Assembly (NCBI RefSeq): GCF_030252185.1
Contig: NZ_CP126970.1
Coordinates: 1,054,001 to 1,118,000, forward strand
DNA: 64,000 bases
Reading direction: 5' to 3'
Source of the DNA: Corynebacterium suedekumii
GTDB taxonomy: Bacteria > Actinomycetota > Actinomycetes > Mycobacteriales > Mycobacteriaceae
Positions 49,057 through 63,020 of the stretch are shown here, one piece after another. The notes under the pieces were generated by a model, which was given only the letters and a program-made list of their open reading frames with translations, was not told the DNA's origin and did not search any database. How positions within the stretch are numbered: position 1 is the stretch's first letter; each line of letters starts with the position of its first letter. The translations under genes were made by a program, and so were the position numbers.

Positions 49057-49200
49057 TCCTTCCCGGCGGGTGCACCCAGGAGACTGAATGCGGGTTTCCG
49101 ACACCGCGGGGGTATCCTTTTGTTTGATCCGCCCCGAGGCGCCCGCCGCCCCGGGGTCTGGCACGTGCAAGGTCTTGAACGGGAAGCGGTGAAGGTAAAC

Positions 49201-50559
49201 GTGAGTGTGCTCGTCGTGGGAATGTCGCACCGGTCAGCGCCGGTGGCGTTGCTGGAGCGACTGAGCATGGACGAGACGGTGCGCAACGACACCACCTCCC
49301 GCCTGGTGGAACGCCCCGCGCTCAGTGAGGCGATGATCGTCTCCACGTGCAACCGGCTCGAGATCTACTCCGTGACTAACTCCTTCCACTCCGGAGTCCA
49401 GGACGTCGTGGAGGTGCTCCACGAGATCTCCGACGTGGACATCGACACCCTGCGCGGTTACCTCTACGTCCGCTACGCCGACGCCGCCGCCGAGCACATG
49501 ATGGTGGTGGCCTCGGGCCTGGACTCCATGGTGGTCGGCGAGCAGCAGATTATCGGCCAGGTCCGCACCGCGTACCAGGAGGCATCCGGCAAAGGCACCG
49601 TCGGGCCGGCGCTGCACTCCCTGGCCCAGTCGGCGCTGCACACCGGCAAGCGCGTCCACTCCGAGACCGACATCGACGACGCGGGGGCCTCGATGGTCTC
49701 CGTCGCCGTCGACGAGGCCCTCGGCCACCTGGGCACCTCCGTGCTCACCGGCCGCACCGCGCTGGTGCTCGGCGCCGGGGCGATGGCGTCGCTGGCGGCG
49801 ACGCACCTGGGGCGGCTGGGCATCGACAAGCTCATCATCGCCAACCGCACCCGTTCCCGGGCCGAGCGGCTGGCCGAGCATTCCCGGGAGGCGGGGGTGA
49901 CGGCCGAGGTCGTGGACTTCGACGACCGGGCGGCCACCCTGTCCCGGGTGGACCTGGCCGTCTCCGCCACCGGCGCGGACGACTTCACCATCACCGCCGC
50001 GGACGTCCCGGACGACCGGGTGGAGGATCTCATGCTCATCGACCTGTCCATGCCGCGGGACATCGACGACGACACCGCGACCCTCGACGGGGTCCACCTG
50101 GTCAACATCGAACGGCTGCACAAGACCATCTCCGGCCGGGGCGACCACCACTCCGGGCACAAGGAGGCGCTCGGGATCGTGGCCGAGGAACTGCAGGCCT
50201 ACAGCTCGGAGCAGCGGGTCCGCGACGTCGTCCCCGCGGTGTCGGCGCTGCGCCGGCACGCCGCGGAGCTGGTGGAGGGGGAGCTGGAGCGCCTGCGCTC
50301 CCGGACCCCCACCATCGACGACGCGGAGTTCGAGGAGGTGACGCGGACGGTGCGCCGGGTCGTCGACAAGCTCCTCCACCAGCCGACGGTGCGGGTGAAG
50401 AAGCTCGCCGCGGAGTCCGGCGTCGTCTCCTACGAGTCCGCCCTGCAGGAGTTGTTCGGGCTCGCGTCCGAGGGGCCGTCCGTCGCCGTCGACGTCGCTG
50501 ACCTGCCGGAGGGCAAACTGACCGAGGACCCCGCCACAACTGTGAAGGAGAAGGTATGA
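49201..50559 (+). CDS. hemA: Glutamyl-tRNA reductase HemA
   Basis: A 452-aa enzyme that reduces Glu-tRNA(Glu) to glutamate-1-semialdehyde, the committed step of C5-pathway haem synthesis. It has the GMSHRSAPV start region, the catalytic Cys50 in [10 protein letters not shown], the [12 protein letters not shown] region, the NADPH-binding [12 protein letters not shown] loop and the C-terminal dimerisation helix. GTG at 49201 ([14 protein letters not shown]) matches homologues. First gene of the hemA-hemC-hemD-hemB run; its stop overlaps hemC by 4 bp. Confidence 0.96.
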
Positions 50560-51446
50560 CCCTGAAGATCGGTACCCGCGGCTCGAAGCTCGCGACGACC
50601 CAGGCCGGCCACATGCGTGATGCGCTCATCGCCGCCGGATTCGACGCAGAGCTGCACATCGTCACCACCGCGGGCGACGTCAACATGGCGCCGGTCGAGC
50701 GCATCGGCGTCGGCGTGTTCACCCAGGCGCTGCGCGACGCGATGGCGGCCGGCGAGTGCGACATCGCCGTCCACTCCTTCAAGGACCTGCCCACCGCGCC
50801 GGACGAGCGTTTCCACCTCATCGTCCCCGTGCGTGCCGACGCCCGCGAGGCGCTCATCGCCCGCGACGGCCTCACCCTGGACACCCTGCCCGAGGGGGCG
50901 CGGGTGGGCACCTCCGCCCCGCGCCGCATCTCCCAGCTGCGCGCCCACCGACCGGACCTGGACATCCGTCCGCTGCGCGGCAACATCGACACCCGCATGG
51001 GCAAGGTCACCTCCGGGGAGCTCGACGCCGTCGTCCTCGCCTACGCCGGCCTGTCCCGCGTGGAGCAGGGCGACCGCGCCAGCCAGGTCTTCGACGCCGG
51101 CACCATCCTCCCCGCCCCCGCCCAGGGTGCCCTGGCCATCGAGTGCCGCGTCGACGACGAGCAGGCCCGCGCCGCCATCGACTCGCTTCTCGACGCCGCC
51201 GCCTTCACCTGCGCCACCGCCGAACGTATCGTGCTCAACCGGCTCGAGGCCGGCTGCACCGCGCCGGTGGCCGCCCACTCCACCCTCGACGGTGACACCA
51301 TCACGCTCACCGCCGGCGTCTTCGCCCTCGACGGTTCCACCCAGCTCACCCACACCGCCTCCGGCACCGACCCCGTGGCCCTCGGCGAGGAGGTCGCCGC
51401 CGACCTCATCGGGCGTGGTGCCGCAGAGGTCATGGCCATAGACTGA
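50556..51446 (+). CDS. hemC: Hydroxymethylbilane synthase (porphobilinogen deaminase) HemC
   Basis: A 296-aa enzyme that condenses four porphobilinogens to hydroxymethylbilane. It has the N-terminal [15 protein letters not shown] motif, [10 protein letters not shown] with the catalytic Asp region that follows, and the cofactor-binding Cys in [14 protein letters not shown], where the dipyrromethane is attached. ATG overlaps the hemA stop (50556-50559), implying coupling. Confidence 0.96.
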
Positions 51447-51451
51447 ACCCC

Positions 51452-51823
51452 ATGGCCGTTCTCAAGATCAACGACCGGCAGGTCACCGTCCTGCTCGACT
51501 GGTGGGAGAAGCTCGCCGCCCGTCGCTCGCACCTGACCATCCCCACCCGCGCTATCACCGCGGTGGAGGTCGTCGAGGACGCCTGCGCCGTCGCCAGCAC
51601 CCGGGACTCGCTGCGCCGGGCCCCGGGCACCCGCATCCGGGGGCTGACCAACACCGGCACCTTCACCGCCGCCGACGGCACCCGGGCCAGCACCTTCTCG
51701 GTGTGCCACGGCGCCGGCCCGGGCATCATCCTCGAGCTGGATTCGGTGACGGTCAACCGCATCATCATCTCCACCCCGAAGGCGCGGGACTACGCCCACG
51801 AACTCTCCCGCGTGGTCGGCTGA
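51452..51823 (+). CDS. Conserved small protein between hemC and hemD
   Basis: A 123-aa protein 5 bp after hemC, predicted mostly beta (MAVLKINDRQVTVLLDWWEK; ITAVEVVEDACAV; THATFSVCHG-like TFSVCHGAGPGIILELD). The pattern resembles bacterial PH-like domain proteins. No signal or membrane segment. Its position suggests a link to haem synthesis, but no function is known. Confidence 0.75.
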   Translation: MAVLKINDRQVTVLLDWWEKLAARRSHLTIPTRAITAVEVVEDACAVASTRDSLRRAPGTRIRGLTNTGTFTAADGTRASTFSVCHGAGPGIILELDSVTVNRIIISTPKARDYAHELSRVVG

Positions 51824-51874: not shown

Positions 51875-52068
51875 GTATTCCGGCCCCTCTAATTTATGGT
51901 GTAGATACCACACGGTGGACGCCCCGTGAGCGATATGGCCCCCTTTTTACGCCGTCACCGGCCGGGGGCACACCGCTGCGATGGGCGTGCATTTGTGTCC
52001 TGACCTGTTGTGACAAACCATTTCCGGCCCGTTTCATGGCGGCGGGCCCGACATTAGAAAAGATCCGT

Positions 52069-53793
52069 ATGAGCATGGTCCCCCAGACCTCCCAGCCGGG
52101 AAAGGTCGTCTTCGTCGGCGCTGGCCCCGGTAACCCCGATCTGCTGACCGTCCGCGCGCGTGAGGTGCTCTCCACCACCTCCGTCGCCGTCACCGACGAG
52201 GCAGTGCTCCCAGGGGTACGTGAGGTCGTCGCTGCCGCTCTCCCGGTGCCGAAGGAGCGTCTCGCCGCCGCGGAGGCGGAGTACGAGCGTATCTGCGCGG
52301 AGGCGAAGGAGGCGGGTGCCCGTCGTCGGCCGCCGCGTCCGGCGCCGCCGACGGCCGCGGACATCCGGGAACCGGTGAGCACTGATCCGGCGTTCATCGC
52401 CACGCAGCTGTCCGAGGCCCTCGCCGAGGCCGAGGGGGATGTCATCCGTCTGGTCTCCGGCAACCCGCTGACCCGGGACTCCACGATGGCGGAGATCGCC
52501 GCCGTCGCCGCCGCGGGCCTGGAGTTCCAGGTCGTGCCGGGCATGTCCCTGCCGTCGACGGTCCCGTCCTTCGCCGGCATCGCCCTGGGCTCCACCTACA
52601 CGGAGACCGATGTCACCGGCGGCGGGGTGGACTGGGACCAGCTGGTCAGTGCCCCGGAGCCGCTCGTGCTCCAGGCCGGTGCCGCGGACCTGGAGACCAT
52701 CGCCACCGAGCTGATCACCCGCGGCATGAGCGTGGACACCCCGGTGTCCGTCACCGTCAACGGCACCACCCGCCTGCAGCGCACCCACGATGCCACCCTG
52801 GGCACCCTCGGCCGGCTCGACGCCGAGCTGCCGGGCCAGCTGGTGGTCACCCTGGGCAAGGGTGTCGACGACCGCACCAAGTACTCCTGGTGGGAGAACC
52901 GCCCGCTGTACGGCTGGCGCGTCCTCGTGCCGCGCACCAAGGAGCAGGCCGCCGCGATGAGCGCCCGCCTGTCCTCCTACGGGGCGATCCCGCAGTCCGT
53001 GCCCACCATCTCGGTGGAGCCGCCGCGGAACCCGGCGCAGATGGAACGCGCCATCAAGGGCATCGTCGAGGGTCGCTACCAGTGGATCGTGTTCACCTCC
53101 GTCAACGCCGTGTCCGCGGTGTGGGAGAAGATCAACGAGATCGGCCTCGACGCCCGCGCCTTCGCCGGTGTGCACCTGGCCGCCGTCGGCTCCAAGACCG
53201 CCGACGCCATCCGTGCCCTGGGCATGACCCCGGAGCTGCTGCCCCCGGCGACGAAGCAGAACGCCGCGGGCCTGGTCGAGGTGTTCCCCGAGTACGTCGA
53301 GGACCTCGACCCGGTGGGACGCGTGCTGCTGCCGCGGGCGGACATCGCCACCGACGTCCTCGTCGACGGCCTGCACGAGGCGGGCTGGGAGGTTGACGAT
53401 GTCGTCGCCTACCGCACCGTCCGCGCCGCCCCGCCGTCGGCGGAGATCCGCGAGATGATCAAGTCCGGTGGCTTCGACGCCGTGTGCTTCACCTCCTCGT
53501 CGACGGTGAAGAACCTCGTCGGCATCGCCGGCAAGCCGCACCAGCGCACCATCATCGCCTGCATCGGCCCGATGACCGCCGCCACCGCGCGCGAGATGGG
53601 GCTGCGGGTCGACGTGGAGCCGGAGATCGCCGAGGTCCCCGAGCTTGTCGACGCCCTCGCGGCCCACGTCGCACGCCTGCGTGCGGCCGGTCAGCTCCCG
53701 CCGCCGCGCAAGAAGCGCCGCGCCCGCCGCAAGGCTGCCCCGGAGGTGGCCACCGAGGCCGGTGCCGTCGTCGCGGAACCGGCGTCGGAATAG
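52069..53793 (+). CDS. hemD: HemD: uroporphyrinogen-III synthase with N-terminal SUMT-like domain
   Basis: A 574-aa fusion. Residues 1-250 resemble uroporphyrinogen-III C-methyltransferase (SUMT), starting with [22 protein letters not shown], but the diagnostic KGGDPFVFGRG region reads [15 protein letters not shown]. The C-terminal half (from about 275) is uroporphyrinogen-III synthase ([31 protein letters not shown]), which closes hydroxymethylbilane to uroporphyrinogen III. The tail is Lys/Arg-rich. ATG at 52069 fits homologues better than 52036. Starts a second transcription unit running into hemB. Confidence 0.92.
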
Positions 53794-53849: not shown

Positions 53850-54878
53850 GTGGCCTCCAACTCCCCGTCCCCGCTGTCCACCCCGATCCCTTCGCGTCGC
53901 CCCCGCCGGCTGCGGCGGAACGCGGCGATGCGCGAGTTCGTCGCGGAGACCACTCTGCGACCCGCCGACCTCATCCTGCCGATGTTCATCGCCGACGGCA
54001 TCGACACCCCGCGGGAGATCTCCTCCATGCCGGGCGTGAACCAGCACACCTTCGACTCGCTCAAGCGGGCCGCGCACGAGGCGCTCGACGCCGGGGTGCG
54101 CTGCGTCGATCTGTTCGGCGTGCCCACCGACGCGGACAAGGACGCCGACGGCTCCCAGGCCTGGCAGGAGGAGGGCATCCTCAACCGGGCGCTGGCCGCA
54201 CTGCGGGAGGAGTTCGGCGAGGACCTGCTCATCATGGCCGACACCTGCCTCGACGAGTTCACGGACCACGGGCACTGCGGGGTGGTGAGGCAGGACCGGT
54301 GGGGACGGGCGGTCGTCGACAATGACGCGACGCTGCCGCTGTACCAGCAGATGGCCGTGGCGCAGGCCGACGCCGGCGCCCACATCGTCTCCCCCTCCGG
54401 GGCGATGGACGGCCAGGTGCTCGCCATCCGGGAGGCACTCGACGAGGCCGGGCACCAGGACGTGGCCATCATGGCCTACTCCGCGAAGTACGCCTCCGCC
54501 TTCTACGGCCCCTTCCGCGAGGCCGTCGGCTCCTCCCTCCAGGGGGACCGCCGCACCTACCAGCAGGACCCCGCCAACCTGCGCGAATCCCTGCTCGAGG
54601 TCCAGCTCGACATCGACGAGGGCGCCGACTTCGTCATGGTCAAGCCCGCCCTGCCCTACCTCGACGTGCTCCACGCCGTCGCCGAGACCTCCCCGGTGCC
54701 CGTCGCCGCGTACCAGGTCAGTGGCGAGTACGCGATGATCCAGGCCGCCGGCCGCAACGGCTGGGTCGACCTCGACGCCGTGATGATGGAGTCGCTGACC
54801 TCCATCAGGCGCGCGGGCGCGGACCAGATCCTCACCTACTTCGCCACCGACGCCGCCCGGCTTATCGGGGGCCGCTGA
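53850..54878 (+). CDS. hemB: Delta-aminolevulinic acid dehydratase HemB
   Basis: A 342-aa enzyme that joins two 5-aminolevulinates into porphobilinogen. It has the [18 protein letters not shown] lysine site and the Schiff-base lysine in [13 protein letters not shown]. The metal region reads [16 protein letters not shown], so one of the three zinc Cys of the classic site is Asp, suggesting altered metal dependence. GTG at 53850 lies after GAGGAAGGACC; upstream frame extends into hemD and is not coding. The stop overlaps the next ATG (TGATG). Confidence 0.95.
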
Positions 54879-55468
54879 TGTCGGAGACGACGACCGGACT
54901 GGACACCCGCGCGGGGGCGGAGACGACGCCGCCCGCCGACGGCAGGCCCGAGATGCCCGAGACCATCCGGCTGCTCCTGCTGCTGTGGTCGCTGGCCATC
55001 GGAGGTGAGGTCCTCCACCAGATCCTCAACGTCGTCATCGCGCTCATCGACCCCGCGCCGCTGCTCGCCATGGCCCGGGAAGGCCTGAGCGACGAGGAGA
55101 TCGCCAACCTCGGCGAGGCCACCGTCACCGCCAGCGCCTACGCCTCGGTCATCCTCATCGGCGTCATGGGCCTGCTCATCATGGGCCTGCTCGCCTGGGG
55201 ACTCACCCTGATCAAACGCCGCTCGAGGCACGCCGGCACCGCCCGCCGACTGCTGCTGTTCTTCGGCATCTACTTCGGCCTGCGCATCCTGCTGCTGTTC
55301 ATGGCGCCCGCCGGCGGCGGGGACGTCCCCGTCATCTTCTACCTCATCGACGGCAGCCTGCAGATCCTCGTCGGCGTCGCCGCGATCCTCGGCCTCGTCT
55401 TCTCCTTCCGGGTCGAGACCATGCGGTGGACCCGTGAGATCGACTCCGACAAGCCGGGGAGGGACTGA
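54878..55468 (+). CDS. Membrane protein downstream of hemB, unknown function
   Basis: A 196-aa protein with a hydrophilic N-terminus (1-28) and four membrane segments (about 30-60, 85-110, 120-140, 148-175). Its start overlaps the hemB stop by one base. No motif was recognised. Membership in the hem cluster is its only functional clue. Confidence 0.82.
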   Translation: MSETTTGLDTRAGAETTPPADGRPEMPETIRLLLLLWSLAIGGEVLHQILNVVIALIDPAPLLAMAREGLSDEEIANLGEATVTASAYASVILIGVMGLLIMGLLAWGLTLIKRRSRHAGTARRLLLFFGIYFGLRILLLFMAPAGGGDVPVIFYLIDGSLQILVGVAAILGLVFSFRVETMRWTREIDSDKPGRD

Positions 55469-55472
55469 CCCC

Positions 55473-55979
55473 GTGCCCAGCATGTTCCCCGGCATGTACG
55501 CCGACCCGAACGACCCCAACCGTCGGCCCCGCACCCCGGCCGGTGACCCCGACACCTGGCCAGCCTCGCTGCGGTGGAGCTACTGGCTCAGTGTCGCCGC
55601 CGCCATCGTCATGGTCCTCGCCGGCCTGGTCATGCTCACGGAGAACCCGCAGGCCGCCAGCGACGCCAACCCCGGGGCCGGCCGGGACCTCATCGAGGCC
55701 TTCCGTGGCAACCTCCGCTTCGTCGGTATCGCCAACATCATCACCGGCCTGCTCATCGCCGCGCTCGCCGCGCAGTTGAGGTCCGGCAGCCGCCTCTCGC
55801 GTCGGATCCTCCTCGTGGTCATCGCGCTGGCGGTGTTCCTCAACGTCGTCGCCTTCGCCATCCAGGTCGGCGGGCTGGCCATGATCCTCATCGTGATTCT
55901 GCTGGCCCTGGCCGCGTTCCTCATGTTCCGCCCGGACGCCAACCACTACGTGGCATACAAAACCGACGCGGAGCACTAA
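55473..55979 (+). CDS. Second membrane protein of the hem cluster
   Basis: A 168-aa protein with three to four membrane segments (about 38-60, 85-105, 112-150) after a Pro/Asp-rich N-terminus (MPSMFPGMYADPNDPNRRPR). GTG at 55473 has GGGAGGGA 9 nt upstream; ATG at 55482 is an alternative. It is 4 bp from the upstream gene and 10 bp from the pseudo-ATPase gene, so probably in the same operon. No function recognised. Confidence 0.78.
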   Translation: MPSMFPGMYADPNDPNRRPRTPAGDPDTWPASLRWSYWLSVAAAIVMVLAGLVMLTENPQAASDANPGAGRDLIEAFRGNLRFVGIANIITGLLIAALAAQLRSGSRLSRRILLVVIALAVFLNVVAFAIQVGGLAMILIVILLALAAFLMFRPDANHYVAYKTDAEH

Positions 55980-55989
55980 TCTTCCAGAC

Positions 55990-58617
55990 ATGGAACGCAA
56001 CGCCGATCAGGTGACCGCCGCGATCGCCGAGGCCCGCAGCGCCGCCGACGCCGCCGGCTTCGGCGACCGGGACGCCCGCGGTGATGATCCCGACATCGAC
56101 CCGGCCGACCGCCCCAAGGTCTCCTACGGCTTCGAACTCGAGGGACTGACCAACGCCCCGGACGTCGCCGACATGGAGATCGCCCTCGAGGCCGTGCCCG
56201 GCGTCCGTGCCCGCATCGTCTACCCCAAAGCCACCGCCTGGATCACCGCCCCCGACACCGTCGACCCGGACGTCCTCGTGGAGATCATCGCCGGCTTCGG
56301 CATCACCGCGGTGCTCACCGACCTGTCCCTGCGCCGCCGCGTGCTCCGCGCGATGCCGGGGGAGGGGCTGGCCCAGCGCACCGACCGCCGGGACCGTCGG
56401 GAACGCAGCCCCCGCCGCGGCCCCTCCTGGAAGATCCGCCGCCACATCGAGGAGGAGGCGCGTCTCCTCGAACGGGCCCGCCGCGCCGGCTTCCTCGACT
56501 CCGAGCTCGACCGCCTGCGTGAACCGGAGACCGCCCACCCGGACGACGTCCTGTTCACCGCCCGGGAACTGCTCACGCCCACCCGCCTGGTCATCGCCCT
56601 GCTGCTGAGCATCCCGGTGCTCATCATGGCCTACTTCCCGGACTGGCAGTTCGACGGCTGGCAGTGGGCGAGCCTGGCGCTGGCCACCCCGGTGGTCACC
56701 TGGTGTGCGTGGCCCTTCCACCGGGCGCTGGTCGGTGGGCTGCGCCGCGGGCTCACGGCCCTCGACGGCGCCAGTTCGGTGGCCATCATCGCGGCCGTGG
56801 TCTGGTCCCTGGTCATGCTGCTGCTCACCTCCGCCGGGGACCTCGACTGGCGTTCCCACCCGGAGTGGTTCGCCTTCCGCCATTCCCGGATCACCGACGG
56901 TGAGCTGTTCCTCGACGTCGCCTGCGGCATGACCGTCCTGCTCCTGGCCGGCCGGCTGCTCACCATGCGTACCCGGGGCAGCCTGCTCGACGAGGTGGAC
57001 GCCCGCCGCCCGGGGCCGCACCATCCCGTGCTCGTCGTCCCCAAGGGCCGAGGGCCGGGAAGCGCGCCGGCGGATGAGCGGATCCCCCTGCAGGAGGTCA
57101 ACGTCGGCGATGACGTCGTGGTCACCGCCGGGGAGATCATCCCGGTCGACGGCGTGGTCGTCGGTGGTGCCTGCACGGTCGAACGCAGCATGATCGCCAC
57201 CAGTGAGGTCGACCGGGAGCCCGTCAAGGTCAACTCCTACGTCTACGCCGGCACCCGGAACCTCGACGGCCGGATCAAGGTCCGCGTGGTCTACACCGGC
57301 CACCGCACCCGCCTGGCCGCCATCCACCAGTGGGTCTCGGACGCGAACCGGAAGCAGAACCAGTCGACCCTGCTGTCCACCCGCACCGCCTCCCTGCTCA
57401 TCCCGGCCGCCCTCGGGGTGGCGGCGCTCGACTTCGCCCTGTGGGTGCTCATCGCCGGCAACTTCAACGCCGCCTTCGCCACCGCCCTCGCGGTGCTGGC
57501 GAGTGTCGCCCCGGTGGCGATCGCCCTGTCCCCGGCCCTGGCCATCCGCCACGGTGTCGAGTCGGCGGCCCGCAACGGGGTGCTCTTCCGGGACGGCGCG
57601 ACCATCCGCCGCACCGAGACGGTGGACACGGTGGTGTTCAACCGGGTGGGCACCCTCGCGGAGACGGACATGACCGTGGAGACCGTGACCGCCGACCGGG
57701 GGGAGAACCCCGAACTCATCCTCCGGGTCGCCGGCGCCCTGGCGCTGGAATCCGACCACCCCGTCTCCCGGGCCCTGGTCCGTGCCGCCCGGGAGGCGCG
57801 CGACGCCGGCGCAGGCGGGGAGGAGATCCCGCACTGGATCGACGTCACCCACGCGGAGGTCGACTCCGAGGGCGGATTCACCGGACTCATCGACCTGCCC
57901 CTGGCGGAGGCCGACGGCAGCGTCCACCTCACCCAGGTGGAGGCGCGGCTGTGGCGGCCGCAGAACATGTCGGAGCTGCACGGCCGGTTGGCGGCGGCCG
58001 CGGTGTCCGGCGGCACCCCCCTGGTGGTGCGGTGGAAGGGCCGGGACCGGGGAGTGATCACCCTCCACGACACCGTCAAGGACGACGCGCAGGACGCCAT
58101 CACCGAGCTCGACGATCTCGGGGTGGACACCGTCATGCTCAGCCGGGACACCTATCCGGTGGCCCGCCGCTTCGCCGACCGCATCGGCATCGACCAGGTT
58201 CTCGCGGGCATCGCCCCGGCGAAGAAGCCGCAGTCGGTCCGGGCACTGCACACCCGCGGGGCGACGGTGGCCATGGTCGGTGACGTCTCGGTGACCGACA
58301 CCCTGCGGGTGGCGGACGTGGGCATCCTCATGGGCACCGACGACCAGGTCGACCGGGTCGCCCAGTCCGGCCACGCGGACGTGGACGTCATCGTCCTGCG
58401 CCCGGATGTCTCCGCCGTGCCGCAGCTGATCTGGCACGCCCGTCGCGTGTGCCGGATCATCGACCACAACATCATCTTCGCCTGGACCTACAACGGCCTC
58501 GCCCTGGCGGCGTCGGTCGCCGGCATCCTCCACCCCATGGCCGCCACCGTCCTCATGCTGGGGTCCTCCCTGCTCATCGAGGCCCGCTCCAACAGCGCCC
58601 GCAACTTCCCCCGCTAG
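55990..58617 (+). CDS. P-type-ATPase-like protein lacking catalytic residues
   Basis: An 875-aa protein with the full P1B ATPase architecture: an HMA-like domain without its CxxC (about 44-111), six to eight membrane segments, actuator domain (about 340-430), and phosphorylation/nucleotide domain (about 545-790). The signature DKTGTLT reads NRVGTLA (Asn551 in place of the phosphorylated Asp). The metal CPC motif in the membrane reads APV (507-509), TGES reads ATSE (403-406), and GDGxND reads GDVSVTD (764-770). SDHP of the N-domain is kept (588-591). It therefore cannot work as an ion pump; a structural, regulatory or haem-related role is inferred from its place between hemB and hemE. Confidence 0.9.
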   Translation: MERNADQVTAAIAEARSAADAAGFGDRDARGDDPDIDPADRPKVSYGFELEGLTNAPDVADMEIALEAVPGVRARIVYPKATAWITAPDTVDPDVLVEIIAGFGITAVLTDLSLRRRVLRAMPGEGLAQRTDRRDRRERSPRRGPSWKIRRHIEEEARLLERARRAGFLDSELDRLREPETAHPDDVLFTARELLTPTRLVIALLLSIPVLIMAYFPDWQFDGWQWASLALATPVVTWCAWPFHRALVGGLRRGLTALDGASSVAIIAAVVWSLVMLLLTSAGDLDWRSHPEWFAFRHSRITDGELFLDVACGMTVLLLAGRLLTMRTRGSLLDEVDARRPGPHHPVLVVPKGRGPGSAPADERIPLQEVNVGDDVVVTAGEIIPVDGVVVGGACTVERSMIATSEVDREPVKVNSYVYAGTRNLDGRIKVRVVYTGHRTRLAAIHQWVSDANRKQNQSTLLSTRTASLLIPAALGVAALDFALWVLIAGNFNAAFATALAVLASVAPVAIALSPALAIRHGVESAARNGVLFRDGATIRRTETVDTVVFNRVGTLAETDMTVETVTADRGENPELILRVAGALALESDHPVSRALVRAAREARDAGAGGEEIPHWIDVTHAEVDSEGGFTGLIDLPLAEADGSVHLTQVEARLWRPQNMSELHGRLAAAAVSGGTPLVVRWKGRDRGVITLHDTVKDDAQDAITELDDLGVDTVMLSRDTYPVARRFADRIGIDQVLAGIAPAKKPQSVRALHTRGATVAMVGDVSVTDTLRVADVGILMGTDDQVDRVAQSGHADVDVIVLRPDVSAVPQLIWHARRVCRIIDHNIIFAWTYNGLALAASVAGILHPMAATVLMLGSSLLIEARSNSARNFPR

Positions 58618-58665
58618 GGGCCCGGCGGTTCGTGTTCCACCCGCCGGTGGACCACAATGGGGGAC

Positions 58666-59727
58666 ATGACACGCCGTAGCCTCCACGACGCCCCGCTTCT
58701 CGACGCCGCCGCCGGCCGCACCCCCACCCGCACCCCGGTGTGGTTCATGCGCCAGGCCGGGCGTTCCCTGCCCGAGTACCGCCAGGTGCGCGAGGGAATC
58801 GACATGCTCGACTCCTGCTTCATGCCGGAACTGCTCGCCGAGATCACCCTCCAGCCGGTGCGCCGCCACGACGTCGACGCCGCCATCCTCTTCTCCGACA
58901 TCGTCGTGCCGCTCAAGGCCGCCGGCGTCGGCGTGGAGATCGTCCCCGGACGCGGACCCGTGATGGATGCGCCGATCCGGACCCGCGCGGACGTCGACAA
59001 GCTCCCGATCCTCGAGCAGGACGTGGACGAGGTGACCCGCGGCATCGGGATCATCCTCGACGAGCTCACCGACACCCAGGCCCTCATCGGCTTCGTCGGC
59101 GCGCCCTTCACCCTGGCCAGCTACCTCGTCGAGGGTGGGCCGAGCAAGAACCACGAGACCACCAAGGCGATGATGCACGCGGAGCCGGAGACCTGGCACG
59201 CCCTCATGCAGCGCCTGACCCCGACGATCATCCGCTTCCTCCAGCTGCAGATCGACGCCGGCATCGACGCCATGCAGCTGTTCGACTCCTGGGCCGGATT
59301 CCTCACCGAACGCGACTACCGCGAGTTCGTCCTGCCGTACTCCACCGAGATCCTCCGCGCCATCGACGACGCCGGCATCCCGCGCATCCACTTCGGCGTG
59401 GGCACCGGCGAGATCCTCGGCGCCATGAGCGAGGCCGGCTCCGAGGTCATGGGCGTGGACTGGCGCGTCCCGCTCGACGTCGCCGCCACCCGCATCGCCG
59501 CCGCCTCCGGCCCGAAGGTCCTCCAGGGCAACCTCGACCCGGCCATGCTCTTCGCCGGCCGCACCGTCCTGTCCCAGGAGGTCGCCCGCATCAAGGCCGA
59601 GGCCGCCGCCGCCATCGACGCCGGCGACGCCACCGGCCACATCTTCAACCTCGGCCACGGTGTCCTGCCGAACACCCCCGCCGAGGCCATCACCGAGACC
59701 GTCGCCATCATCCACGAGGAGCACTAG
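58666..59727 (+). CDS. hemE: Uroporphyrinogen decarboxylase HemE
   Basis: A 353-aa enzyme that removes four carboxyl groups from uroporphyrinogen III to give coproporphyrinogen III. It has the N-terminal signature PVWFMRQAGRSLPEYR with the catalytic Arg, the FSDIVVP loop and DSWAGFL. The start MTRRSLHDAPL follows GGGGGAC; the ATG three codons upstream is less likely. Its stop overlaps hemY by one base. Confidence 0.96.
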   Translation: MTRRSLHDAPLLDAAAGRTPTRTPVWFMRQAGRSLPEYRQVREGIDMLDSCFMPELLAEITLQPVRRHDVDAAILFSDIVVPLKAAGVGVEIVPGRGPVMDAPIRTRADVDKLPILEQDVDEVTRGIGIILDELTDTQALIGFVGAPFTLASYLVEGGPSKNHETTKAMMHAEPETWHALMQRLTPTIIRFLQLQIDAGIDAMQLFDSWAGFLTERDYREFVLPYSTEILRAIDDAGIPRIHFGVGTGEILGAMSEAGSEVMGVDWRVPLDVAATRIAAASGPKVLQGNLDPAMLFAGRTVLSQEVARIKAEAAAAIDAGDATGHIFNLGHGVLPNTPAEAITETVAIIHEEH

Positions 59728-61118
59728 TGCGCTACGCCATCATCGGCGCCGGCCTCGCCGGCCTCGTCGCCGCCGTGGAGATTCGCCGCGCCGACCCGGA
59801 CGCCCACATCGACGTCCTCGAGGCCGAGGACCGTATCGGCGGCAAGCTGTTCACCGTCCCCTTCGAGTCCGGCCCCACCGACATGGGCGCCGAGGCGTTC
59901 CTCGCCCGGCGACAGGACGCCGTCGAGTATGTGGCGTCCCTCGGCCTGGGCGACGAACTCGTCCACCCCTCCGGCCTGCGCTCCCTGGTCTACTCCGGCG
60001 GCACCGTCCACGATCTGCCGGCCGGCGGCGTCATGGGCATCCCCGCCACCTCCGCCCCCGTCGCCCACCTCGTCTCCACCGACACCGCCGCGCGTATCGA
60101 CGCCGAGGGTGACCAGGACAGCATCCCCTGGCAGGTCGGTGGTGACATGAGCGTCGGCCGCCTGGTCCGCGAACGCTACGGCGACGAGGTCGCCGACCGC
60201 GTCGTCTCCGCCCTGCTCGGCGGCGTGTACTCCTGCCAGGCCGACGACCTGGGCATCCGCGCCACCATCCCGCAGCTGGCCGTCGCGTTGGACGAGTTGG
60301 CCGAGGCAGGGGAGAAGGTCACCCTCTCCGGTGCCGTCGCCCGCTGCGAGGCCGCCCGCCCCACCCCCGCGCCGGGGGCGGTGCCGGCGCCGGTGTTCGC
60401 CACTTTCCGTGGCGGCTACGCCCAGTTCTACGAGGCCCTCGCCGAGGCCTCGGGTGCCGACATCCACCTCGACGCCTTCGTCTCCGGCATCACCCGCGGC
60501 GTCGGCGGCTTCACCATCACCGGCGGTGGGGAGGGCACGTACGACCGCGTGCTCCTGGCCACCCCGGCCCCCACCACCGCCATGCTGCTGCGCCAGTTGG
60601 TGCCCGCCGCCGCCGAGGCCCTCAAGGCCGTCAAGCTCGCCTCCTCCGCCGTGGTGGGCATGAAGTTCGACTCCGCCGAGGGGCTGCCGGAGAACTCCGG
60701 CATCCTCGTCGCCGCGGACGAGCCCGAGGTCCAGGCGAAGGCCTTCACCCTCTCCTCGAAGAAGTGGCCGCACCTGGGGGAGCGGGGCGGCGCCCTCGTC
60801 CGTGCCAGCTTCGGCCGCTTCGGCGACGACGCCATCGTCCGCGCCGACGAGGACGCACTTGTCGACTGGGCCCTCGACGACCTGGAGACCCTCACCGGCT
60901 TCGACGGCCGCGCCGCCGGCCTCGCCGAGATCTACGTCCAGCGCTGGTTCGGCGGCCTCCCGCGCTACGACGAGACGCACCTGGCCACCGTCGACACCGT
61001 CCGCACCGCGCTTACCGACGCCCCCGGCATCGACGTCACCGGCGCCTGGACCGGCGGAGTGGGTGTCCCCGCCGTCATCGCGGACGCCCGCGCCGCCGCC
61101 ACCCGTTTGCTAGGCTGA
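59727..61118 (+). CDS. hemY: Coproporphyrinogen III oxidase HemY (CgoX)
   Basis: A 463-aa FAD enzyme with N-terminal AIIGAGLAGLVAAVEIRR and the GGKLFTVPFESGP region that follows in this family, plus a C-terminal FAD-contacting GAWTGGVGVPAVIADA. In Actinobacteria HemY oxidises coproporphyrinogen III to coproporphyrin III (the coproporphyrin-dependent branch) rather than protoporphyrinogen. GTG start at 59727 overlaps the hemE stop (TAGTG). Ferrochelatase and HemQ genes are not in this window. Confidence 0.93.
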   Translation: MRYAIIGAGLAGLVAAVEIRRADPDAHIDVLEAEDRIGGKLFTVPFESGPTDMGAEAFLARRQDAVEYVASLGLGDELVHPSGLRSLVYSGGTVHDLPAGGVMGIPATSAPVAHLVSTDTAARIDAEGDQDSIPWQVGGDMSVGRLVRERYGDEVADRVVSALLGGVYSCQADDLGIRATIPQLAVALDELAEAGEKVTLSGAVARCEAARPTPAPGAVPAPVFATFRGGYAQFYEALAEASGADIHLDAFVSGITRGVGGFTITGGGEGTYDRVLLATPAPTTAMLLRQLVPAAAEALKAVKLASSAVVGMKFDSAEGLPENSGILVAADEPEVQAKAFTLSSKKWPHLGERGGALVRASFGRFGDDAIVRADEDALVDWALDDLETLTGFDGRAAGLAEIYVQRWFGGLPRYDETHLATVDTVRTALTDAPGIDVTGAWTGGVGVPAVIADARAAATRLLG

Positions 61119-61203: not shown

Positions 61204-61524
61204 GTGACCATCTCGTGGATCATTCTGCTTCTCTCCGGCGCCTTCGAGGCCGTGTGGGCTGTCGCCCTGGACAAGTCCGCCGGCTTCTCCCGCCTCGGCC
61301 CCTCCATCGTCTTCGTCGTCGCCCTCATCATCTCCATGGGCGGGCTCGCCTGGGCGCTCAAGACCCTCCCACTGGGCACCGCCTACGCCGTGTGGGTCGG
61401 CGTCGGTGCCTCCCTGGCCGTCATCTACTCCTTCGTCACCGGGCAGGAAGCCGTCAGCGCCCTGAAGATCCTCTTCCTGCTCATGGTCGTCGGAGGCATC
61501 GTGGGCCTCAAACTCGCCAGCTGA
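61204..61524 (+). CDS. SMR-family small multidrug/guanidinium exporter
   Basis: A 106-aa protein with four membrane helices. The functional Glu in helix 1 lies in [11 protein letters not shown], and [12 protein letters not shown] marks the conserved helix 3 region; the FEAVWAVAL form is closer to SugE/Gdx than to EmrE. Start is GTG at 61204. It separates hemY and hemL, which are neighbours in other corynebacteria I know, so it is probably an insertion. No riboswitch is visible in the 85-bp gap upstream. Confidence 0.88.
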
Positions 61525-61703: not shown

Positions 61704-63020
61704 ATGACTTCCGCTGATGTGACCTCGGCCCACACGACTGCGTCCGCCCGATCCTTCGATCGCGCCCGCGCGCTCATCCCCGGTGGCGTGAACTCGCCGG
61801 TGAGGGCCTTCGGTTCCGTCGGCGGCCAGACCCGCTTCATCGAGTCCGCGTCCGGGTCCCGGCTGCGTGACGTCGACGGCAACGAGTACGTCGACCTCGT
61901 CTGCTCCTGGGGCCCGATGATCCACGGCAACGCCCACCCCGAGGTGGTCGAGGCCGTGCAGCAGGCGGTGACGAAGGGACTCTCCTTCGGCGCGCCGACC
62001 AACGCGGAGACCGAGCTGGCCCAGATGATCGTCGACCGCACCAGCGTGGAGGAGGTCCGCCTGGTCAACTCCGGTACCGAGGCCACCATGTCCGCCGTCC
62101 GGCTGGCCCGCGGATTCACAGGTCGACCGAAGATCATCAAGTTCGACGGCTGCTACCACGGCCACGTCGACGCCCTGCTCGCCGCCGCCGGTTCCGGGGT
62201 GGCCACCTTCGCCCTGCCGGACTCGCCGGGTGTCACCGGGGCCTCGGCCGCCGACACCATCGTCGTGCCCTACAACGACCTGGAGGCGGTCAAGGCCGCA
62301 TTCGCGGAGCACCCGGGGGAGATCGCCTGCATCATCGCCGAGGCCGCCGCGGGCAACATGGGCACCGTCGCCCCGCAGGACGGCTTCAACGCCGCACTGA
62401 AGGAGATCGCCCACGCCGACGGTGCCCTGCTCATCCTCGACGAGGTCATGACCGGTTTCCGCACCTCCCACTCCGGCTGGTTCGGGGTGGACGGGGTGGC
62501 CGGTGACCTCACCACCTTCGGCAAGGTCGTCTCCGGTGGTCTGCCCGCCGCCGCGTTCGGTGGCCGCCGCGACATCATGGAGCACCTGGCCCCCACCGGC
62601 CCCGTCTACCAGGCGGGCACCCTGTCGGGTAACCCCGTCGCCATGGCCGCGGGCATGGCGTCCCTGCGACTGGCCTCCGAGGACATCTACCCGGTGCTCG
62701 AGGCCAACGCCGACCGCCTGGCCGGGCTCATCTCCACCGCCCTTCAGCGCGAGGGTGTGGCACACCACATCCAGCGCGCCGCCACCATGCTGTCCATCCG
62801 TTTCGCCGAGGGGCAGGGCCACAACTTCGACGAGATGAAGGCCGCCGACACCTTCCGGTTCCCGGCGTTCTTCCATGCGCTGCTCGACCACGGGGTCTAC
62901 GCCCCGCCGAGCGCGTTCGAGACCTGGTTTGTGTCCACCGCGCTGACGGACGATGATTTCAAGCGGATCGAGGACGCACTCGTCCCCGCCGCGAAGGCCG
63001 CCGCCGCCGCAACCGCCTAA
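61704..63020 (+). CDS. hemL: Glutamate-1-semialdehyde 2,1-aminomutase HemL
   Basis: A 438-aa PLP enzyme that turns glutamate-1-semialdehyde into 5-aminolevulinate, the step after HemA. It has the [11 protein letters not shown]-terminal signature, [15 protein letters not shown], the cofactor-binding Asp246 in [12 protein letters not shown] and Lys274 in [12 protein letters not shown]. It probably has its own promoter. It is followed 12 bp later by the histidine phosphatase. Confidence 0.97.

Follow-up and report, generated by a model that had tools for sequence, protein, structure and literature searches.

The transport cycle of P-type ATPases needs an aspartate that forms an acyl-phosphate, a TGE motif for dephosphorylation and an ND motif for Mg2+. 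Pseudokinases and pseudophosphatases are well known, and a catalytically dead enzyme variant has reportedly also been described from corynebacterial haem biology, judging by its title a pseudokinase version of ChrS in C. glutamicum. To our knowledge, a full-length P-type ATPase pseudoenzyme that is kept across a bacterial genus has not been described. Here, we analyzed a candidate for such a protein, a pseudo-P1B-ATPase (PPA) of 875 amino acids (aa), which is encoded at positions 55990..58617 (+) of a 64,000-nucleotide stretch of Corynebacterium suedekumii DNA, called the window in the following (contig NZ_CP126970.1, positions 1,054,001 to 1,118,000). The closest described systems are the P1B Cu+-ATPases (CopA-like proteins, the structure 3rfu, actinobacterial enzymes), which share domain and helix order as well as the YN and MxxSS motifs with PPA, are nearest to it in a tree and show about 30-37% identity among the matches listed. 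Unlike these enzymes, PPA contains no DKTGT, CPC, GDGxND or CxxC motif and no in-register TGE, and carries newly fixed residues. The ChrS pseudokinase differs from PPA in being a histidine kinase variant of unrelated fold. A degenerated P-type ATPase-like part, in which most signature residues are unidentified, is also described for the Plasmodium guanylate cyclase PfGC-beta in the passages available of PMC6592433; in contrast to PPA, this protein is eukaryotic, of the P4 type and fused to a cyclase.

Literature searches, which mostly did not extend to subscription papers, gave no bacterial example of a pseudo or inactive P-type ATPase among the matches listed, and within the same limits no description of the PPA locus was found. 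Likewise, the accessible passages of a 2023 review of P-type ATPases (PMC10654040) yielded none on dead members. In public records, several PPA proteins are called 'heavy metal translocating P-type ATPase' or 'copper-exporting P-type ATPase', names which are contradicted by their sequences. Records under the names C. callunae and C. deserti carry PPA as well. As judged from sequence comparison, PPA is a genus-wide pseudo-P1B-ATPase under purifying selection, and it probably has a non-pumping job.

Family assignment and altered residues

PPA is an open frame with an ATG start, and homology to P1B ATPases was found at the sequence level over the membrane, actuator (A), P and N domains by Pfam and NCBIfam matches and by the match to 3rfu. 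The Pfam models E1-E2_ATPase (105 bits) and Hydrolase (52 bits) matched above their cut-offs, while TIGR01525 (heavy metal translocating P-type ATPase) scored 296.2 bits and thus remained below its curated cut-off of 346.25. Among relatives of solved structure, the copper efflux ATPase 3rfu matched best (192 bits, residues 178-855), and it was also the top match for a profile built from 80 PPA orthologues. The helices MA, MB, M1 and M2 (aa 197-327; 56578..56970, +) were placed by alignment to 3rfu, with a simple hydropathy scan finding three of the four. They are followed by the A domain (aa 328-462; 56971..57375, +), identified by its Pfam match and the orthologue alignment, which has lost the TGE loop, and, towards the C-terminus, by M5 and M6 (58390..58599, +) with YN (834-835) and MxxSS (856-860) kept. 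The N-terminal domain (aa 44-118; 56119..56343, +) is most likely a relative of HMA domains, since phmmer aligned residues 50-111 with the mercuric reductase HMA domain 2kt2 (E=1e-5). NCBIfam PRK13748 matched aa 49-115 at E=4e-4, below its cut-off, and the Pfam HMA model gave no PPA match at E<=1. The P1B layout and intact 875-aa frame that an earlier note on this DNA had claimed were therefore borne out.

One PPA orthologue each was present in 119 of 151 Corynebacterium genomes (E<=1e-100). The remaining 32 genomes contained weaker matches only (best 3e-87); the top match was read in 30 of these genomes and contained DKTG in each. All 119 orthologues were translated from DNA and aligned with 42 P1B control proteins, three from the C. 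suedekumii genome, 30 from PPA-less genomes and nine from other actinobacteria, with one fragment left out. The control set consists of top matches to the PPA query, some of them near-copies; counts out of 118 or 117 refer to those of the 119 orthologues that cover the position. In 117 of the 119, one open frame fills at least 760 of the 875 positions, the exceptions being one orthologue at a contig end (G114) and one with a broken frame in a 77% complete genome (G078). For four orthologue matches one in-span stop was reported, and the open frames of these four still span at least 760 positions.

At the phosphorylation site, positions 550-556 of PPA read FNRVGTL instead of (x)DKTGTL, so that NRVGT (aa 551-555; 57640..57654, +) takes the place of DKTGT. 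N551 and R552 were found in all 118 covered orthologues and Asp and Lys in all 42 controls, and DKTGT did not occur at the homologous place in any of the 118. In M4, CPC is replaced by APV (aa 507-509; 57508..57516, +). A cysteine is present at position 507 in only one of 118 orthologues and at 509 in none, and the required CPC, CPH, SPC or TPC of this helix is missing. TGE is absent from the A-domain loop (396-412) in 117/119 orthologues, compared to TGE in 39 and SGE in three of the 42 controls; the other two orthologues (L010 and L143) contain a TGE string inside the loop, which is, however, out of register with the controls in the alignment. This loop varies in length and sequence across the family, ATSE being the version of C. 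suedekumii only. Within GDVSV (aa 764-768; 58279..58293, +) the GD is kept and the ND is lost, and GDGxND was found anywhere in none of the 119 orthologues versus 41 of 42 controls. The same holds true for CxxC in the HMA-like stretch (0/119 versus 36/42). Stray strings did occur among the 119 orthologues, namely DKTG in one (near residue 434), DxTG[TS] in two, CPC/CPH in two and TGE[SAP] in four, none of them at the homologous position.

Further exchanges concern the P domain, the N domain and the membrane part. TGD is replaced by SRDTYP (aa 718-723; 58141..58158, +), in which R719 and Y722 are each present in 118/118 orthologues, with Gly at the position of R719 in 42/42 controls. M1 has lost its Met (L258 in 119/119; Met in 40/42 controls) and M3 its Asp (position 464 mostly Thr or Asn; Asp in 41/42 controls). 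Together with the M2 acid, these two residues reportedly form the copper entry site of Legionella CopA, on which a literature search found no paper; of the three, PPA keeps the M2 acid and has lost the other two. At position 585 in the N domain, five residues ahead of the conserved His, 42/42 controls have a Glu. It is gone in 118/118 orthologues, having given way to Ser (46), Ala (40), Met (11), Cys (6), Thr (6), Leu (5) or Val (4). In WRP (aa 655-657; 57952..57960, +), Trp (W655, 117/119) takes the place of the Gly of the VGN/VGR motif at the N-domain ATP site, which all 42 controls possess. A comparison of the GxG motif in the N domain was set aside, as the alignment is gapped there. The Glu at position 585 presumably corresponds to E1064 of human ATP7B, and the Gly replaced by W655 possibly, via our own alignment, to G1149. 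In the accessible passages of PMC3203118, G1149 of human ATP7B is among the residues with NMR signals to ATP, and a direct ATP contact of the N-domain His is disputed. Owing to the changes at the N-domain ATP site, ATP binding by PPA appears unlikely.

With the acyl-phosphate Asp, TGE and ND all missing, pumping by PPA is predicted to be very unlikely. GD, K746 and H590 are mostly kept, which might point to an active pump whose catalytic centre is unusual. Nevertheless, Asn at the nucleophile position in 118/118 orthologues, the loss of ND, CPC and the N-domain ATP-site residues and the disappearance of TGE in at least 117/119 make this explanation highly improbable. A strain-specific loss of pumping was rejected as well, because no intact DKTGT or CPC was found in place among the 118 covered orthologues. 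Aligning the orthologues, as the earlier note had proposed, showed the altered Asn-Arg pair in every covered orthologue, and Asn for the phosphorylated Asp, the loss of GDGxND and the missing CxxC are indeed features of the whole family. Its APV for CPC was confirmed for the query, with the CPC cysteines lost throughout the family. ATSE for TGES was right as far as the loss of TGE is concerned, ATSE itself being merely the C. suedekumii form of a variable loop. The statement that all motifs are altered applies to the catalytic motifs and went too far in the case of H590, K746, D765, YN and M856, which are still present.

Altogether, 116 positions are at least 95% conserved in PPA, and at 55 of these the controls show no majority for the PPA residue. 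Residues kept in common with P1B ATPases are P508 (118/118), the N-domain His H590 (109/118), K746 (117/118) and D765, the first Asp of GD (109/117), and in the membrane Y834 (117/117), N835 (114/117) and, in the last helix, M856 (115/118). The M2 motif D309-V-A-C312 (56914..56925, +) combines an acid found in 119/119 orthologues (D in 109, E in 10) with an invariant Cys: C312 is present in 119/119, and none of the 41 covered controls (of 42) has a Cys there. According to the alignment, C312 is placed one helix turn from the kept acid. Other newly fixed residues are W448 and W485 (119/119 each) and R116 (118/118). By these alignments, catalysis is gone, part of the membrane site is retained and a new Cys lies near a kept acid.

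Such a site would also suit a non-pumping Cu+ buffer or chaperone that serves a canonical copper ATPase or cytochrome oxidase assembly, with the position in the haem gene cluster reflecting a common demand for respiratory cofactors. The nearest relatives of PPA are Cu+-type P1B ATPases, YN, MxxSS and the M2 acid are kept next to the new invariant M2 Cys, and the C. suedekumii genome contains three other P-type ATPases with DKTGT as possible partners. However, PPA has lost CPC and CxxC as well as the Met of M1 and the Asp of M3, and the adjacency to hem genes would be left otherwise unexplained, so that we regard a Cu+ buffer as distinctly unlikely.

Selection on the gene

Ratios of nonsynonymous to synonymous changes (dN/dS) were calculated according to Nei-Gojobori with a script of our own; of 34 non-overlapping pairs listed, 22 close ones with a PPA dN <0.1 were used and 12 were dropped as saturated; this cut was picked after the pair list had been seen. 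In the 22 pairs, the median dN/dS of PPA was 0.067 (range 0.014-0.157), and nine stretches between residues 44 and 870 gave pooled values of 0.047-0.101. This is the low dN/dS for which the earlier note had suggested to check, and no relaxed selection was seen in the close pairs. Its proposal of selection for a retained non-pumping role is borne out by this value together with the conserved altered residues and the lack of any intact DKTGT or CPC in 118 orthologues.

A decaying pump or pseudogene could be suspected in view of the many motifs gone, three lineages without PPA and the broken frame of G078. In contrast, dN/dS is far below 1 in all nine stretches, the frames are long in 117/119 orthologues and new residues have become fixed, which makes decay hardly credible; on the dN/dS of the close pairs it was rejected. 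Among the stretches, M3-M4 (0.047) and M5-M6 (0.057) are among the most constrained, and the P1B membrane parts align, as would be expected of an ATP-independent channel or carrier for a porphyrin, haem or an ion. Yet the P-domain parts are about equally constrained (0.058 and 0.068), for which a passive channel would have no need, and this alternative is accordingly quite doubtful.

Haem gene neighbourhood and distribution

All genes identified around PPA in the window lie on the + strand. Upstream of it are hemA (49120..50559; NF000744, 567 bits from residue 28, with the true start probably inside the frame), hemC (50556..51446; TIGR00212, 314 bits), a hemD-like part fused to a uroporphyrinogen-III C-methyltransferase-like part (52036..53793; matches below the family cut-offs) and hemB (53907..54878; NF006762, 471 bits, start codon tentative). 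Two overlapping genes for small membrane proteins, mem1 (54878..55468; 196 aa, no Pfam or NCBIfam match) and mem2 (55434..55979; 181 aa, no Pfam or NCBIfam family above cut-off), separate hemB from PPA in C. suedekumii. PPA starts 10 bases past the end of mem2 and ends 39 bases ahead of the hemE frame (58657..59727; TIGR01464, 384 bits), which is followed by hemY, encoding a protoporphyrinogen/coproporphyrinogen oxidase (59727..61118; NF008841, 587 bits), and hemL (61704..63020; NF000818, 616 bits; TIGR00713, 578 bits). The position between hemB and hemE given in the earlier note is thus correct for hemE, which is directly downstream, whereas mem1 and mem2 intervene on the side of hemB. Between hemC and hemD, a 123-aa frame (51452-51823, +) had no Pfam or NCBIfam match. 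An SMR (SugE-like) gene (61204-61524, +) between hemY and hemL matched Pfam Multi_Drug_Res with 74 bits and the SugE model with 101 bits, below its cut-off of 126.

At the 119 PPA loci, three hem genes (hemE, hemL, hemY) were sought downstream. The next of these was hemE in 73, hemL in 38 and hemY in two cases, which adds up to 113 loci, and in 107 of the 113 it was at most 900 bases away. Of the six loci without such a gene, five had no more than 1,500 bases of sequence on that side and one (L090) had 2,711. The nearest identified upstream gene was mem2 in 81, mem1 in 29 and hemB in nine of the 119 loci. A hemB was found in 111/119 of the stretches read; among the eight misses, five had 1,500 bases of flank and three about 4,000. 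Many of the hemL-type loci (38 genomes, e.g. L126, L137, L148, L157) are on the deepest branches of the genus. No hemE was present in the stretch read at hemL-type loci, positions of hemE and hemY elsewhere in these genomes not having been searched. The link of PPA to the haem cluster is supported in part, with hemE, hemL or hemY next to it in 113/119 loci, hemE not being its constant neighbour. Relatives of mem1 and mem2 occur beside hemB in most species read, PPA-less ones included.

PPA might also be a conserved pseudoenzyme that is unrelated to haem and held in the cluster by operon expression or chance. This is supported by the PPA-less species, which retain the haem genes, and by mem1 and mem2 intervening between hemB and PPA. 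On the other hand, PPA remains next to hemB, mem1 or mem2 even where hemL follows, including on the deepest branches, and we consider a role unrelated to haem unlikely. In C. glutamicum, hemE is cg0516 (PMC7337898, Table 1); according to the accessible parts of that study, the regulator HrrA, which responds to haem, has this gene among its strong targets. Haem would therefore control the hem stretch at least as far as hemE is concerned. The available passages on HrrA targets in the same source do not name a pump-like gene, and literature searches for C. glutamicum hemB and the intervening gene numbers gave unrelated probe names only.

In 31 of the 32 PPA-less genomes, hemB, mem1 and hemE are consecutive on one stretch (mem2 was found in 28 of the 32); in the remaining one, G080, hemB and hemE are on separate contigs. 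A species tree was calculated from HemB, HemD and HemC of 149 Corynebacterium genomes (117 with PPA, 32 without) and 12 other genera; as a FastTree with some long branches, it leaves room for the number of changes to shift. On this tree, presence and absence of PPA require three changes, one in G080, one in G088 together with G092 and one in a 29-species clade. The deepest branches carry PPA. With the root placed on the outgroup, the pattern is best read as one early gain followed by three losses.

Outside the genus, two to four candidates were scored per genome at the threshold of E<=1e-100. In a family sample (201 genomes), the top match outside Corynebacterium reached 5e-96 and none passed the threshold, and all 17 such outside-genus loci read contain DKTGT, CPC and GDGxND. 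The four hits in an order sample (298 genomes) and the two in a class sample (394 genomes) at E<=1e-100 were all from Corynebacterium. A P1B tree of 85 rows comprised 27 PPA rows (of 119) and 58 canonical ones. The PPA rows form one clade with a support of 100, which lies next to 51 canonical rows and has a stem 1.72 changes per site long. Two proteins, P0088 (50-53% to PPA queries) and P0237 (65% to a HemY), on a 288190-base contig labelled Staphylococcus chromogenes look Corynebacterium-type, and this record is probably mislabelled or contaminated. The hemE at G101:C2:72224-73251 matches as two overlapping pieces, which is likely due to a frameshift or an assembly error.

Possible function

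PPA may be a Cu+-ATPase-like protein that has lost catalysis and is kept as a membrane scaffold or regulator that responds to a ligand and serves tetrapyrrole synthesis, a reading to which we would give even chances; our best guess for its ligand site is the M2 Asp/Cys pair. A Cu+-ATPase-like protein would have become part of the haem cluster no later than the base of Corynebacterium. The residues for phosphorylation, dephosphorylation, ATP binding and transport would then have been lost, with the protein retained for a new job. YN and MxxSS, together with D309 and C312, might bind a ligand, which could be a tetrapyrrole or a soft metal ion, for instance Cu+. The A/P/N head, frozen and equipped with newly fixed Arg and Trp residues, could relay the ligand state to a partner in the cytosol; the most likely partner would be one of the haem enzymes encoded in the hem cluster. 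Coupling between the head and the membrane parts is supported by their similar constraint, and some ligand by the kept and new membrane residues; the position in the hem cluster supports a tetrapyrrole role weakly to moderately.

Several points weigh against a regulatory role of this kind. The 32 of 151 genomes that lack PPA retain hemB and hemE, so that haem synthesis as such does not depend on it. Among the close pairs, hemB and hemD evolve more slowly than PPA, with a dN/dS of 0.037 for hemB (22 pairs) and 0.039 for hemD (20 pairs) as compared to 0.067. When all overlapping pairs with dS <1 (1,339) are taken, the PPA median rises to 0.58 with a maximum of 1.06, and the medians of hemB and hemD are 0.26 each (1,339 and 869 pairs); we ascribe these high ratios to saturation of synonymous sites. 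No pattern was found between PPA and cytochrome bd, which is present in 54/151 genomes: C. suedekumii has PPA and no cytochrome bd match, and G080, G088 and G092 have a bd match and no PPA. Folding alone might explain why YN and MxxSS are kept, the helix position of C312 is predicted from the alignment, the place of PPA in the hem cluster may be passive, and ligand and partner are candidates.

A more specific form of the scaffold or regulator reading would be a P-type ATPase turned membrane receptor, in which a rebuilt site of D309, C312, Y834 and M856 binds a metal or tetrapyrrole and signals to haem enzymes. We put this forward tentatively, as a possibility on the unlikely side. If it were true, Corynebacterium would have a feedback control of tetrapyrrole synthesis that is described nowhere else. 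As Corynebacterium naturally includes species with and without PPA, and the gene keeps a constant position among the hem genes, its function is directly testable in non-pathogenic laboratory strains of the genus.

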